Shown here one piece after another: positions 7,570 to 12,504 of a DNA stretch of 32,170 bases. Source of the DNA: Halalkalicoccus subterraneus (GTDB taxonomy: Archaea > Halobacteriota > Halobacteria > Halobacteriales > Halalkalicoccaceae); NCBI RefSeq assembly GCF_003697815.1, contig NZ_RDQG01000052.1:1-32170 (forward strand). Direction: 5' to 3'. A program made the position numbers and the translations under genes. The first letter of the stretch is position 1, and each line of letters opens with the position of its first letter. The notes beneath the pieces are model-generated. The model was not told the origin of the DNA. It searched no databases and saw only the letters and a program-made list of their open reading frames with translations.

Positions 7570-7839
7570 CTACGACTCGATCTTCGCGACGATCTGGCGG
7601 GCCTGCTGCTTGGCTTTTCCCTCGCCGACGTGCTTGTCGATCAGGACGGAGGTCACCTCCCAGTCGTCGCTTCCCTCGACTCTCCCCGTGCGGACCTCGC
7701 TGCCCTCCGAGACGGACTCGGCCGGTTCCGTCGCCCAGTCGGGGGTCCGGATCTCGTCGTAGCGGTCGGGATCGCGAAACCGGACGTGGACGTACTCCTC
7801 GTCCGTTTCGACCAGTTCGATGTCGGGCGTATCTGTCAT
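7570..7839 (-). CDS. Small conserved haloarchaeal protein, unknown function
   Basis: An 89-residue, soluble, acidic protein beginning MTDTPDIELVETDEEYVHVRFRDP. It contains a compact alternating beta-like N-terminal half and a C-terminal helix (VGEGKAKQQARQIVAKI). The pattern suggests a small alpha+beta domain, but I do not recognise a named family. The start at 7839 is supported by CTTTAGT on the minus strand at 7863-7869, giving leaderless spacing. It is divergent from cofD across a 106-bp gap that holds one promoter for each direction. Confidence 0.7.
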   Translation of the reverse strand: MTDTPDIELVETDEEYVHVRFRDPDRYDEIRTPDWATEPAESVSEGSEVRTGRVEGSDDWEVTSVLIDKHVGEGKAKQQARQIVAKIES

Positions 7840-7862
7840 ACGAAACGAGAGCACTGTCGGCG

Positions 7863-7945: not shown

Positions 7946-8932
7946 ATGGTCACGTTTCTCTCCGGGGGGACCGGGACGCCGAAGCTCCTCTCCGGCACAG
8001 AGGACGTCTTTTCGCCCGAGGAAACGACGGTGATCGCGAACACGGGTGACGACATCGAACTCGGCGGGCTGTTCGTCTCGCCGGACGTTGATACCGTGCT
8101 GTTCGAGCGTGGCGGCGCCCTCGACCGCGAGACGTGGTGGGGAATGGAGGGCGACACCCACGAGACCGACGAGTTCCTCTTCGAACTCGCCGAGAGCGCG
8201 GGGTTGGAGGACGGCCCGCGCTACCTTTCCGACGAACGCCAGACCGCCGGCAGGGAGATCGCTCGCTGGCGGCGCTTCTCGGGGATCGCGGAGTTCATGA
8301 CGATCGGCGACAAGGATCGGGCGGTCCACATCACCCGGACGAGCCTGCTCGACGAGGGCCACACCCTTACGGAGGTCACCCGTACCCTCGCCGATGCCTT
8401 CGGACTGGAGATCGACCTCGTCCCGATGAGCGACGACCCGCTCGCGACGATCGTCCACACCCCTGACGGACCCATGCACTTCCAGGAGTTCTGGGTCGCG
8501 CGTCGGGGCGAGCCGACCATCGAGGACGTGGAGTTCCGCGGCGAGGCGTGCTCGACGCCGGCGGTCCGTGAGGCTCTCGGGGACCGAGTCGTGATTGGCC
8601 CCTCGAACCCGGTCACCAGTATCGGCCCGATCCGCGCGGTCGAGGGGGTCGAGGAGGCGCTTGTCGAAGCGCCGGTGGTCGCGGTCTCCCCGTTCGTCGA
8701 GAACCGGGTCTTTTCGGGGCCCGCGGGCGACCTGCTGGCCGCGACGGGCTATGAGCCCTCGACGGCGGGCGTCGCCGAGGCCTATCCCTTCGTCGACGCG
8801 TTCGTACTGGATTCGGCGGACGGAACCGACCTGAATCGACCAGTTGTCCACACCGACACGGCGATGGACTCGCCAGAGGACGGGGTCCGCGTGGCGCGGG
8901 CGGTCGACGAGGCGCTCTCGGAGGTGACCTGA
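7946..8932 (+). CDS. cofD: 2-phospho-L-lactate transferase (CofD), coenzyme F420 biosynthesis
   Basis: A 328-residue CofD homologue. The N-terminal phosphate-binding signature [15 protein letters not shown] (GGTGTPK at residues 7-13) and the NTGDD segment near residues 32-36 are diagnostic. [13 protein letters not shown] and the conserved [15 protein letters not shown] block follow in the C-terminal half. The enzyme transfers an activated phospholactyl-type group from a guanosine-diphosphate donor to the deazaflavin Fo, giving F420-0. It is the first gene of an operon whose four cistrons overlap by 1, 4 and 4 nt. That suggests the downstream unassigned genes act in cofactor metabolism too. 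Confidence 0.95.
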
Positions 8933-9666
8933 TGCGCGTGGTCGCCGCGAGCCTGAGCGGGCAGTCGGACGCCGAGTGGGCACGCCGGGCGAGCGAGTAC
9001 GTCGATCGTGCGATCCTCGGTGGGGTCGCGCTCGACGAACCATCGAGGGAGGCCGCCCGCGAGCTGGTCGCGCGGGGCCGCGAGGAGTTCCTGCCTACCG
9101 ATCCCCTCGGGTTCGTCAACGACCAGCTCGCGGCGCTCTCGAGGGACGGGATCGGGACGGGGTTCAACGTCCGGAGCACCTCGCCCGGGCCGGTCCGGGC
9201 GGCGGCAGAGATCTGCCGGAATCACGACGCGATCCCCGAGATCAACGCCCACTGTCGGCAGGCAGAGTTGTGCCGGGTGGGCTGTGGCGAGGCGTTGCTT
9301 CGAGATACCGACCGGCTCTCCGAGCAGGTCCGTGCGGCGGCCGAGACGGGCGCGCGGGTGAGCGTGAAGGTGCGAGCGGAGGTTCCGGGCGTCGATCTCG
9401 TGGAGACCGCACGGGCGATCGAGGACGCCGGGGCGGCGATCGTCCACGTCGACGCGATGGACTCCGAGCCGGTGATTCGTGAGGTAAACGAGGTGAGCGA
9501 CCTGTTCGTGATCGCGAACAACGAGGTGCGAGGGCGAGAAAGCGCCCACGAGTACTTCGCTCTCGGCGCCGACGCGGTGAGCGTCGGCCGGCCGAGCGAC
9601 GATCCACGAGTGCTCGCTCGCGTGCGCGAGGCGGTCGACGCCTGGGATCGGGAGGCGAGCGCATGA
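8932..9666 (+). CDS. Dus-like TIM-barrel flavoprotein (NifR3-related, no RNA-binding domain)
   Basis: A 244-residue TIM-barrel protein related to tRNA-dihydrouridine synthases. Dus-type landmarks are present: EINAHCRQAELCRVGCGEALL (residues 103-123) aligns with the NxGCP..GaaLl active-site loop and keeps the cysteine at 108. VSVKVRAE matches the vKxRxG lysine strand, and IANNEVRG...GADAVSVGRPS matches the phosphate-binding end of the barrel. At 244 residues it lacks room for the C-terminal helical tRNA-binding domain of true Dus enzymes. Two extra cysteines (114, 118) lie in the same loop. It overlaps cofD by one base (TGATG) and the next gene by four. A role as an FMN-dependent reductase in cofactor synthesis is an inference; a tRNA-modifying role is not excluded. 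Confidence 0.82.
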   Translation: MRVVAASLSGQSDAEWARRASEYVDRAILGGVALDEPSREAARELVARGREEFLPTDPLGFVNDQLAALSRDGIGTGFNVRSTSPGPVRAAAEICRNHDAIPEINAHCRQAELCRVGCGEALLRDTDRLSEQVRAAAETGARVSVKVRAEVPGVDLVETARAIEDAGAAIVHVDAMDSEPVIREVNEVSDLFVIANNEVRGRESAHEYFALGADAVSVGRPSDDPRVLARVREAVDAWDREASA

Positions 9667-10490
9667 GGCCCGCCGAGAACGCCCAGCTCGCGCTGTTGCT
9701 CGAAGTCTCGGGAACGCCCAAGCCGGGCAACGTCGACCGCGATCGCGACCTCGATGACCTGCGCTACGAACAGTTCCTCTCGGGCGCGGTCGGCGCGGGC
9801 GCGGGGCTGCGAGCCGCGGAGTCAGGCCCCGTCGGCGAGACCTTCGAGCGCGCCGTACAGGGGATGGTCGATCCGCACGGCGAGAACACCCAGTTCGGGG
9901 CGCTCCTCTTGCTCACGCCGTTGGTTCGGGCAGCAAACGAGGAGAATCTCTCACCGGCGGGCGTCGACAGCGTCGTCAAGGACACCACCGTCACGGACGC
10001 CGCGGCGTTCTACCGGGCGTTCGAGCACTGTTCGGTGTTCGTCTCCGATCCGCCCGCCGACGCGGGCGAACTCGACGTTCGACGCGGCGCGGCGGCGGTT
10101 CCGGCCGTCGAAGAACGGGACCTCTCCCTGTACGAGGTCATGGCGCTGGGCGAGGACGAGGACGACGTGGCCCGCGAGTGGACGGGCGGGTTCGAGCGCT
10201 CGTTTCGGGTGGCGAGTCGGATCGGGGAGCTCCCGGGATCGCTCTCGGATCGGACGGCGGCGGTCTTCTGCGAGCAGTTGGCCGAACACCCCGACACGCT
10301 GGTGGCGAAGAAACACGGGTCCGAAACGGCCGAGTGGGCAAGCAAGGAGATCGCCGAGCACCTCGGCGACATCGACATGCTCATCTCGCTCGCTAACTCG
10401 TTCGTCCGGCGTGGGATCAACCCCGGGACTACGGCGGATATCGTCGCCGCCGGCCTCTTCATCGCGCTCGAACGGGGTGTCGAGGTGTGA
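9663..10490 (+). CDS. CitG/MdcB-like protein (triphosphoribosyl-dephospho-CoA synthase family, COG1767)
   Basis: A 275-residue, mostly helical protein. It shows the CitG-like VSGTPKPGNVDRDRDLDDL opening (PGxVD motif) and the GENTQFGALLLLTPLV block, equivalent to the NTHKG region of CitG. The acidic/Lys pair region TLVAKKHG is also present. In bacteria the family attaches a phosphoribosyl group from ATP to dephospho-CoA for citrate or malonate lyase. No such lyase is present here and none is expected, so the family name probably misdescribes its job. Its place between a Dus-like protein and a DUF447-like protein, behind cofD, points to cofactor biosynthesis. From memory, COG1767 and DUF447 relatives also cluster with tetrahydromethanopterin genes in methylotrophs. 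ATGA overlap with the gene before, GTGA with the gene after. Confidence 0.8.
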   Translation: MRPAENAQLALLLEVSGTPKPGNVDRDRDLDDLRYEQFLSGAVGAGAGLRAAESGPVGETFERAVQGMVDPHGENTQFGALLLLTPLVRAANEENLSPAGVDSVVKDTTVTDAAAFYRAFEHCSVFVSDPPADAGELDVRRGAAAVPAVEERDLSLYEVMALGEDEDDVAREWTGGFERSFRVASRIGELPGSLSDRTAAVFCEQLAEHPDTLVAKKHGSETAEWASKEIAEHLGDIDMLISLANSFVRRGINPGTTADIVAAGLFIALERGVEV

Positions 10491-11113
10491 GCGGCGAGGG
10501 TGGTGAGGACGGGGACGGAAACGCGAGCGATAGCGGCTGGCCGGTCGACCTCGACGGCGTGGTCGAGTCGGTCGCCGCCACGCTGGGCCCAAACGACCGG
10601 TGGAACTTCGCCGCTCTCGGCCTCTTTCCGGACGAACCGGTCACCGCCCGGACGTGGGGTAACACCCGTACCAGACGGAACTTCCACCGCGAGGGCGAGG
10701 GGTACGTCCAGTTCACGCGCGATCCCGTCGCGTTCGTCGAGGCGGCCTGTTCGATCCACGAGCGCGACGACCCCGTTCTCCCCTCGGCGGACGCGTGGGT
10801 TCGCGTCGAGGTGGGGCGGGTCGAGATGGGCGAATCGGGCGGCACGCAGTGGGAGAGGTGGGCACTCACGCCCGTCGAGTCGGGCGTGGAACGCCGAGTG
10901 GTGCCGACGATTTCGCGGGGTCGTGGCGCCGTGATCGAGGGGGCCGTCGCGGCCTCGCGTCTCGACGTGCCGAGCTACGACACCGCCGACCTGCTCGATC
11001 GACTCGCCTACTTCGAGGGGGTCGTCGAGCGCTGTGGAAGCGAGCGCGACCGGGTAGCCTTCGACCGGCTCACGGAACACTCGGGCTGGAAGCGTCGAAA
11101 CGAATCCTTTTAG
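10487..11113 (+). CDS. DUF447-like protein (predicted FMN-binding split barrel)
   Basis: A 208-residue protein with a GTG start inside the preceding stop region (GTGA overlap). After a low-complexity acidic head it reads WNFAALGLFPDEPVTARTWGNTRTRRNF, then QFTRDPVAFVEAACS. This is the layout of DUF447/COG2457 proteins, for which an FMN-binding split-barrel fold has been described in a methanogen member. The C-terminal part, RGRGAVIEGAVAASRLDVP, also fits. It closes the cofD operon. The rps17e promoter (CTTTTAGG) overlaps its last codons and stop. Function unknown; the operon context argues for a role with the CitG-like and Dus-like proteins. Confidence 0.7.
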   Translation: MSGEGGEDGDGNASDSGWPVDLDGVVESVAATLGPNDRWNFAALGLFPDEPVTARTWGNTRTRRNFHREGEGYVQFTRDPVAFVEAACSIHERDDPVLPSADAWVRVEVGRVEMGESGGTQWERWALTPVESGVERRVVPTISRGRGAVIEGAVAASRLDVPSYDTADLLDRLAYFEGVVERCGSERDRVAFDRLTEHSGWKRRNESF

Positions 11114-11137: not shown

Positions 11138-11332
11138 ATGGCAATCAAACCGGCCTACGTCAAGAAGACGGGGACGCTCCTCATGGAGCGCTATCCGGAA
11201 GCCTTCGGCAGCGACTTCGATCACAACAAGAACAGCGTCCGCGAACTCACCAACATCGAGTCCAAGGGTGTCCGCAACCGGATCGCAGGCTACGTCACCC
11301 GCAAACACGACCAGCAGCAGGCCGCCCAGTAG
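11138..11332 (+). CDS. rps17e: 30S ribosomal protein S17e
   Basis: A 64-residue protein reading MAIKPAYVKKTGTLLMERYP, followed by FDHNKNSVRELTNIESKGVRNRIAGYVTRK. This is a full-length match to the archaeal/eukaryal ribosomal protein S17e, a basic component of the small subunit. Its length is normal for archaea. It lies just upstream of asd on the same strand, but a 137-nt gap with its own TATA-like box means asd can be transcribed independently. Confidence 0.97.
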   Translation: MAIKPAYVKKTGTLLMERYPEAFGSDFDHNKNSVRELTNIESKGVRNRIAGYVTRKHDQQQAAQ

Positions 11333-11469: not shown

Positions 11470-12504
11470 ATGACTCACACTGTCGGTATCCTCGGTGCGA
11501 CCGGTGCGGTCGGACAGCGACTCATCCAACTGCTCGATCCCCACCTTGATTTCGAGATCGAAGCGCTCACCGCGAGCTCCGAGAGCGCGGGCAAACCCTA
11601 CCGGAAGGCCGCGAAATGGCGCATCAGCACGCCCATCCCCGAGAGCGTGGCCGACATCACGGTCGCCGAAACCGATCCCGACGCGATCGATAACGACATC
11701 GACCTGCTGTTCTCCTCGCTTCCCTCCGCGGTCGGCGAGCGCGTCGAGAGCGACTTCTGTGAGGCGGGCTACCTCGTCTCCTCGAACTCCTCGAACCAGC
11801 GCATGGCCGAGGACGTTCCACTGGTGATCCCCGAGGTCAACGCCGACCACCTCGGACTCCTCGAAGTGCAGCGCGACGAGCGGGGCTGGGACGGCGCGAT
11901 GGTGAAAAACCCCAACTGCTCGACGATCACGATGGTCCCCACGCTCGCCGCACTCGACGAGTTCGGACTCTCGAGAGTCCACGTCGCGACCCTGCAGGCC
12001 GTCTCGGGGGCGGGCTACGACGGCGTCACCTCGATGGAGATCATCGACAACGCCATCCCGCACATCGGCGGCGAGGAGGAGAAGATGGAAAGCGAGTCCA
12101 AGAAGCTGCTCGGCGGGTTCGACGGGGCGGAGCTGTCGATGCACGACGCCGCTGTGTCGGCCTCCTGTAACCGGATTCCCACGCTGGACGGCCACCTCGA
12201 GAACGTCTGGGTCGAGGCCGAGGAGGACATGACCGCCGAGGACGCCCGCGAGGCGATGGAGTCCTACGAGTCGGCTGACCTCCCGAGTTCGCCCGACCCC
12301 CTGATCCGGGTGTTCGAGGAGCCAGAGCGCCCCCAGCCCCGCCTCGACCGCGAGCGCGAGAACGGCATGCAGATCTGCGCGGGCGGCCTGCGTGAGAGCG
12401 AGAGCGGCCTGCAGTACAACTGTCTGGCCCACAACACGCTTCGCGGCGCGGCCGGCGCGAGCGTGCTGAACGGCGAGTTGCTCGCGAAGGAAGGATACCT
12501 GTAG
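11470..12504 (+). CDS. asd: Aspartate-semialdehyde dehydrogenase
   Basis: A 344-residue enzyme that reduces aspartyl-4-phosphate with NADPH to aspartate semialdehyde, the branch point to lysine, threonine and methionine. The NADP-binding loop is VGILGATGAVGQRL (residues 5-18) and the catalytic cysteine is C150 in VKNPNCSTITM. A conserved QAVSGAGYDG block and the SCNRIPTLDGHLENVWVE segment with the catalytic histidine follow. The length and motifs match the archaeal/fungal type of ASADH. A 7-bp stem-loop follows directly after the stop codon. Confidence 0.96.
   Translation: MTHTVGILGATGAVGQRLIQLLDPHLDFEIEALTASSESAGKPYRKAAKWRISTPIPESVADITVAETDPDAIDNDIDLLFSSLPSAVGERVESDFCEAGYLVSSNSSNQRMAEDVPLVIPEVNADHLGLLEVQRDERGWDGAMVKNPNCSTITMVPTLAALDEFGLSRVHVATLQAVSGAGYDGVTSMEIIDNAIPHIGGEEEKMESESKKLLGGFDGAELSMHDAAVSASCNRIPTLDGHLENVWVEAEEDMTAEDAREAMESYESADLPSSPDPLIRVFEEPERPQPRLDRERENGMQICAGGLRESESGLQYNCLAHNTLRGAAGASVLNGELLAKEGYL

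Follow-up and report, generated by a model that had tools for sequence, protein, structure and literature searches.

Four overlapping genes at positions 7946–11113 of a 32,170-nucleotide stretch of the Halalkalicoccus subterraneus genome (contig NZ_RDQG01000052.1, the window) encode CofD, an archaeal Dus protein, a CitG-family protein and a DUF447 protein. The analysis leads to a new division of this operon into three parts: the CitG-like and DUF447 proteins together with an MptG homologue encoded elsewhere in the genome, CofD, and the archaeal Dus protein. We lean slightly towards the view that in haloarchaea the CitG-like protein, the DUF447 protein and the unlinked MptG form one unit, which makes a ribosylated arylamine as the side chain of a compound of the methanopterin type. 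The genes are linked to each other by gene order, co-occurrence, co-loss and motif conservation; every reaction assigned to them is one that we infer.

The gene cofD (7946–8932) encodes 2-phospho-L-lactate transferase of F420 biosynthesis. Its product exceeds the cut-off of the equivalog model TIGR01819 (365.8 bits against 257.45), in agreement with the initial annotation of this DNA; the cofD gene of Haloferax volcanii is HVO_2479. On the same plus strand it is followed by the archaeal Dus gene, called here dusL (8932–9666), the CitG-family gene, called here citG (9663–10490), and duf447 (10487–11113), which starts with GTG. The junctions, read directly, are TGATG with an overlap of 1 nucleotide between cofD and dusL, ATGA with an overlap of 4 nucleotides between dusL and citG, and GTGA with an overlap of 4 nucleotides between citG and duf447. 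The four-gene layout described in the initial annotation is thereby confirmed.

Joint Loss of citG, duf447 and mptG

CitG and MptG (TIGR00144) were searched for in 253 haloarchaeal genomes, all with a completeness of at least 93%. Exactly three of them lack CitG: G021 and G086, which belong to one genus, and G139, which belongs to another. MptG is missing in five genomes, and these include all three that lack CitG. In the phylum sample, in which DUF447 was scored, the same three genomes are the only haloarchaea without DUF447. The hypergeometric probability of the co-loss of CitG and MptG is 3.7e-6 with phylogeny ignored, and a crude event-level figure is 2e-4. In the tree of cofD and dusL (plus asd), G139 groups with G035 and G110 with a support of 100, and G021 and G086 group with G344 with a support of 95. 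Since the sister genomes G035, G110 and G344 all possess the trio, two independent co-losses are indicated. The excision is clean, as cofD, dusL, rps17e and asd have stayed in place in the CitG-less genomes. The adjacent citG and duf447 genes could be lost in one event. The mptG gene, however, is distant from them (about 180 kb in G035), and its loss thus provides independent evidence. It is likely that this unlinked MptG homologue, which was missed in the initial annotation, is the real partner of CitG and DUF447.

All three genomes that lack CitG, DUF447 and MptG still have CofD. This clearly indicates that CofD is not functionally tied to CitG and DUF447. Mch was considered as a further member of the unit and was ruled out, because it is also kept in G021, G086 and G139. 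The dusL gene has remained next to cofD in the haloarchaea that lost citG–duf447, and G012, G018 and G019, in which no dusL was found, retain CitG, DUF447 and MptG; DusL was therefore ruled out as a member as well. The initial annotation had suggested that all four genes may belong to one unassigned pathway for an F420, pterin or pyridine-type cofactor. The tight overlaps with cofD in haloarchaea, and the location of cofD near citG–duf447 also in two loci outside the haloarchaea (L081 and L072), would suit the production or modification of F420 or one common cofactor by all four genes. Nevertheless, this explanation is quite improbable given the retention of CofD in the three genomes, the presence of CitG and DUF447 in Sulfolobus acidocaldarius, in which CofD has no match, and the fact that no cofD was seen in bacterial citG–duf447 clusters with the models used. 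The idea of a common pathway thus holds for the pair of CitG and DUF447 and fails for cofD and dusL, which are retained when the pair is lost. For this pair, a pterin-type compound is the best fit of those named, and F420 is unlikely. In the proposed explanation CofD and the archaeal Dus protein would be encoded on the same transcript as the pair, with separable functions.

In G139 (L132:3764–4957), a gene that we read from its translation as deoxyhypusine synthase-like is located between dusL and rps17e, at the site of the lost citG–duf447 pair. Internal stops flagged in the dusL genes of G021 and G086 were dismissed: the called frame, of 242 amino acids, is complete and most likely holds the terminal stop only.

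Conservation of the Gene Order

DUF447, searched alone, is present in 37 of 40 relatives and in 285 of the 296 genomes of the phylum. Fifty-nine loci (L004–L063, with the window's own L022 left out) were fetched by DUF447 alone, and in 57 of them, from both haloarchaeal and other genomes of the phylum, duf447 is directly preceded by citG. With such a proportion among loci retrieved by DUF447 alone, the linkage of citG and duf447 is not a matter of chance. The neighbourhood extends across the phylum, whereas its restriction to close relatives had been named in the initial annotation as an argument against the proposed pathway. The two exceptions are L023, in the available stretch of which no citG was found, and L033, in which cofD and duf447 occur without citG. 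The dusL gene is usually located upstream of citG wherever the short locus reaches, in haloarchaea and non-haloarchaeal members alike.

In haloarchaea the genes form the string cofD–dusL–citG–duf447–rps17e–asd with cofD at its head. Such an order, in which cofD and dusL behave as separable genes, could also mean that citG and duf447 are co-transcribed members of a housekeeping string, to which rps17e and asd belong too, and have no function in common. We consider this improbable: the adjacency of citG and duf447 survives where the flanking genes differ, both genes recur in bacterial tetrahydromethanopterin (H4MPT) clusters, and both were lost together with the distant mptG. The 987 kb replicon CP031304.1 of Natrinema thermotolerans (L145:255–7522), filed as a plasmid, carries the same string, interrupted between dusL and citG by three additional genes. 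The presence of rps17e and asd suggests that this replicon is chromosomal in character.

On the methanogen side, the string dusL/marker 9–citG–duf447(–dmrX) has the same order as the haloarchaeal one, and the orthologous proteins share 35–42% (CitG) and 21–31% (DUF447) identity. It differs in that cofD is mostly not found ahead of it, and a dihydromethanopterin reductase gene (TIGR02700, above the cut-off) is the next after duf447 in two loci (L076 and L081). Furthermore, the non-haloarchaeal Dus proteins usually carry a C-terminal extension, a tail that the haloarchaeal DusL does not have. In both non-haloarchaeal Dus proteins that were scanned, the extension is a methanogenesis-marker-9 domain (TIGR03277). 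In family f32 (L075:4027–4980), the Dus half of the fusion is degenerate, with no HCRQ cysteine motif, and the marker-9 half is intact; in this family the function may therefore reside in the marker-9 domain. In L081 (6933–8844), a Fic-domain gene lies between cofD and citG–duf447–dmrX; this genome of 1.0 Mb has no dusL match.

Bacterial Clusters and Control Genomes

When plasmid records were searched with tblastn, DUF447 turned up on megaplasmids from Rhizobium, Paraburkholderia and Caballeronia. Gene calling on three of these megaplasmids placed mptG and citG in one run with duf447 nearby, within methanopterin/methylofuran one-carbon (C1) clusters that contain mptG (encoding β-ribofuranosylaminobenzene 5′-phosphate (RFAP) synthase), mch and fae. 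The relatives of COG1767 and DUF447 in methylotroph H4MPT clusters, mentioned in the initial annotation, are thus real. According to family scans, the order in Caballeronia is MptG, an unnamed gene, an ATP-grasp protein, Mch, an MptN/RimK-type ligase, CitG and formaldehyde-activating enzyme, continued by DUF6513, DUF447, MfnB-type, MfnF-type, MfnD-like and Fhc-type genes including Ftr. This locus is the known archaeal-like C1 cluster. Neither cofD nor dusL was found in the bacterial clusters of citG, duf447 and mptG with the models used. The published order in Methylosinus is mch–orf5–orf7–fae and orf19–orf20–afpA–orf21–orf22 (PMC3615186). Judged by position, orf7 would be the CitG gene and orf20 is probably the DUF447 gene, the latter assignment being the weaker one. 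The haloarchaea have homologues of mptG, citG, duf447 and mch in common with the methylotroph cluster, which holds them all together along with fae, fhc and mfn genes. By contrast, MfnB is absent from haloarchaea, neither mptG nor mch is linked to citG–duf447 there, and this pair stands beside cofD and the archaeal Dus gene.

Among the control genomes, MptG and DUF447 match the same four archaea, and CitG matches these and Escherichia coli. The distributions of CofD, Mch and MfnB differ from this pattern; S. acidocaldarius, one of the four archaea, has no match for any of the three. MfnB is present among the control genomes only in M. jannaschii and M. acetivorans, whereas CitG and DUF447 also occur in H. 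volcanii and S. acidocaldarius. It was found in four of five non-haloarchaeal members of the phylum and in none of the 22 haloarchaea tested. Because of these differences and the absence of MfnB from haloarchaea, the trio is concluded to track the arylamine-riboside branch of methanopterin-type pterins, and neither F420 nor methanofuran. In bacterial clusters duf447 is the neighbour of mfnB and lies close to an MfnF-type gene, which could point to a role of citG–duf447 in methanofuran or methylofuran synthesis. The distribution of the furan-forming MfnB makes such a role extremely improbable, and for haloarchaea it is unlikely and nearly refuted. A folate analogue with methanopterin features is contained in Sulfolobales (PMC3261824). 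A passing remark in the literature ties DUF447 to Pyrodictium cannulae (PMC13140500); it does not fit the DUF447 distribution seen here and was set aside.

The CitG-Like, DUF447 and MptG Proteins

The CitG-like protein is a strong member of PF01874 (209 bits) and contains the conserved KPG, NT and NPG.AD motifs. The residues K20, P21, G22, D25, D32, N75, T76, G79, D211, P254, G255, A258 and D259 are invariant with E. coli CitG. The common Pfam family and the catalytic-type residues would be in line with the classical CitG reaction, the formation of 2′-(5″-triphosphoribosyl)-3′-dephospho-coenzyme A for the acyl-carrier protein of citrate or malonate lyase. However, the protein scores 21.9 bits against TIGR03125 (cut-off 272) and 17.5 bits against TIGR03132 (cut-off 282), and its partners are DUF447 and MptG, while those of bacterial CitG/MdcB are citX/citDEF, as in E. 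coli. The classical function is therefore very improbable, and with such scores the protein should not be called a triphosphoribosyl-dephospho-coenzyme A synthase. The curated models thus reveal a trap for annotation.

The DUF447 protein passes both models of its family, DUF447_N and DUF447_C (PF04289 and PF20766, 74 and 57.7 bits), and 15 invariant columns are kept across the phylum. Structures have been solved for relatives of CitG and of DUF447; those of the latter (2iml, 2ptf, 2nr4 and 3b5m) we take to be flavin mononucleotide (FMN)-binding. In the literature no paper was found that gives a function to DUF447 or to archaeal COG1767.

The MptG homologue of H. subterraneus is encoded on the minus strand of another contig (C33:12116–13066), unlinked to the four genes, and scores 160.6 bits against the TIGR00144 subfamily cut-off of 113.5. 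In the alignment, haloarchaeal MptG keeps the phosphate loop HxGLGSGT and the R-G/A-x-SG-x-G loop, both for phosphoribosyl pyrophosphate (PRPP), as well as the arginine equivalent to R26. RFAP synthase makes a C-riboside from p-aminobenzoate and PRPP; mutagenesis showed that R26 governs the affinity for p-aminobenzoate and that the methanogen enzyme with D19N keeps some activity in vitro, with an about threefold higher KM (PMC6787355). At the D19 position the haloarchaeal protein has Asn. The sequence GF after RLH, RSG in place of TSG, and GQSSWGP are common to haloarchaeal MptG and the MptGs of bacterial H4MPT clusters, unlike those of methanogens. RFAP synthase activity of haloarchaeal MptG is plausible in view of the retained PRPP loops and R26, the tolerated D19N exchange and the features in common with the bacterial proteins; the shifted pocket is the main caveat. 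Several sites are fixed differently in the two groups; for example, haloarchaeal MptG has Y26, F145, E197 and N238 where methanogens have D, K, P and G. These sites, and the description of folate as the haloarchaeal C1 carrier (PMC8305020), would also agree with MptG, DUF447 and CitG keeping their types of chemistry while having drifted to another acceptor, so that a ribosylated aryl metabolite and not a pterin cofactor would be made. This is unlikely in our view, as R26 and the PRPP loops are kept and several of the differences from methanogens (GF, RSG and GQSSWGP) also occur in the bacterial proteins.

The neighbours of haloarchaeal mptG (IlvD, a TFS-type zinc ribbon protein, KaiC-like, UspA-like and unknown proteins) are uninformative, and the attempt to deduce a function from them was abandoned. 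One haloarchaeon (L137:9550–10554; G436:C1:131130–131960) has a second MptG, which at 288 bits is much closer to the family model. It adjoins phage-type integrase, Ham1-like and nucleotide-kinase-like genes and looks acquired.

Proposed Biosynthetic Steps

After RFAP, methanopterin synthesis requires that the ribofuranose be opened reductively to give ribitol, to which a ribose 5-phosphate is then attached in α-linkage. In the proposed unit, MptG would condense PRPP with p-aminobenzoate under loss of CO2 and produce RFAP. DUF447 as an FMN enzyme would catalyze a reduction on the arylamine branch, perhaps the opening of the ribofuranose to ribitol; this assignment is weaker than that of the CitG step. 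With ATP as the donor, the CitG-like protein would attach an α-ribosyl-5-(tri)phosphate to the ribitol and release adenine. CitG transfers an α-linked 5-triphosphoribosyl group from ATP onto a ribose hydroxyl, with adenine being released. This type of chemistry suits the α-ribose step; the residues in common with E. coli CitG are invariant. A wider version of the proposal, in which nearly all haloarchaea make a methanopterin-like ribosylated arylamine beside folate by means of MptG, DUF447 and CitG, and the latter two account for two unassigned methanopterin side-chain steps wherever this cofactor is made, is tentative and must be regarded as rather doubtful.

Several points weigh against the assignment of the trio to a methanopterin-type compound. 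We know of no methanopterin-like ribosylated arylamine compound in haloarchaea. The fixed pocket sites of haloarchaeal MptG described above differ from those of methanogens. Two draft assemblies, G338 and G460 (170 and 70 contigs), retain CitG and DUF447 without a detected MptG. Family f2, with small genomes of about 70% completeness, has cofD–duf447 without citG, and MptG in G026. Haloarchaea have been described as tetrahydrofolate users in which the methanopterin-specific synthesis enzymes are absent, and HVO_2628, the MptG homologue of Haloferax volcanii, with identities of 31% and 26% to characterised enzymes, was judged as likely not to make RFAP (PMC8305020). The near-universal presence of MptG, CitG and DUF447 in haloarchaea contradicts the stated absence of these enzymes. 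The retention of the trio and its joint loss when CitG and DUF447 go point to an unrecognised compound. Haloarchaea, which are regarded as having replaced methanopterin by folate, thus seem to keep a methanopterin-type side-chain module. A review of 2011 (PMC3087415) counted three named methanopterin genes, estimated that some seven more were unknown, and assigned at least nine steps to the non-pterin part of the molecule. Should CitG and DUF447 be among the unknown proteins, open steps would become directly testable in Haloferax and Methylorubrum, which are easily handled genetically; LC-MS has already been applied in this way to methylofuran (PMC8141765).

The Archaeal Dus Protein and the Flanking Genes

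DusL is a TIM-barrel protein of only 244 amino acids, which scores 31 bits against PF01207 and 125.7 bits against TIGR00736 (the MJ0144 family), under the cut-off of 218.7. It appears to be a relative and not an equivalog of the MJ0144 family. The archaeal Dus subfamily is defined by NXHC[K/R] and HXD, which replace NXGCP and HXR (PMC3674756). The window protein contains both signatures (EINAHCRQ and HVDAMD) and also keeps K-x-R. The protein is best treated as a putative dihydrouridine synthase of this subfamily with a function separate from CitG and DUF447.

Downstream of duf447, the plus strand carries rps17e (11138–11332), which encodes ribosomal protein S17e and was recognized by its translation (MAIKPAYVKKTGTLLMERYPEAF...) and synteny, and asd (11470–12504), the conserved right flank, which encodes aspartate-semialdehyde dehydrogenase (TIGR00978, 403 bits against a cut-off of 301) and is also supported by synteny. 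The rps17e gene is likely to have its own promoter, judging from a TTTTAG sequence about 27–30 nucleotides 5′ of the ATG. Ahead of cofD, on the opposite strand, are a gene for a short-chain fatty acid transporter (PF02667, 5803–7215) and, between it and cofD, a gene for a conserved protein of 94 amino acids without a family match (7570–7854). A single scan of genome contigs turned up only two close relatives. The nearest named relative is Halalkalicoccus paucihalophilus (L002), with protein identities of 75–84% across the four genes, and in this species the transporter and the 94-amino-acid protein also precede cofD.

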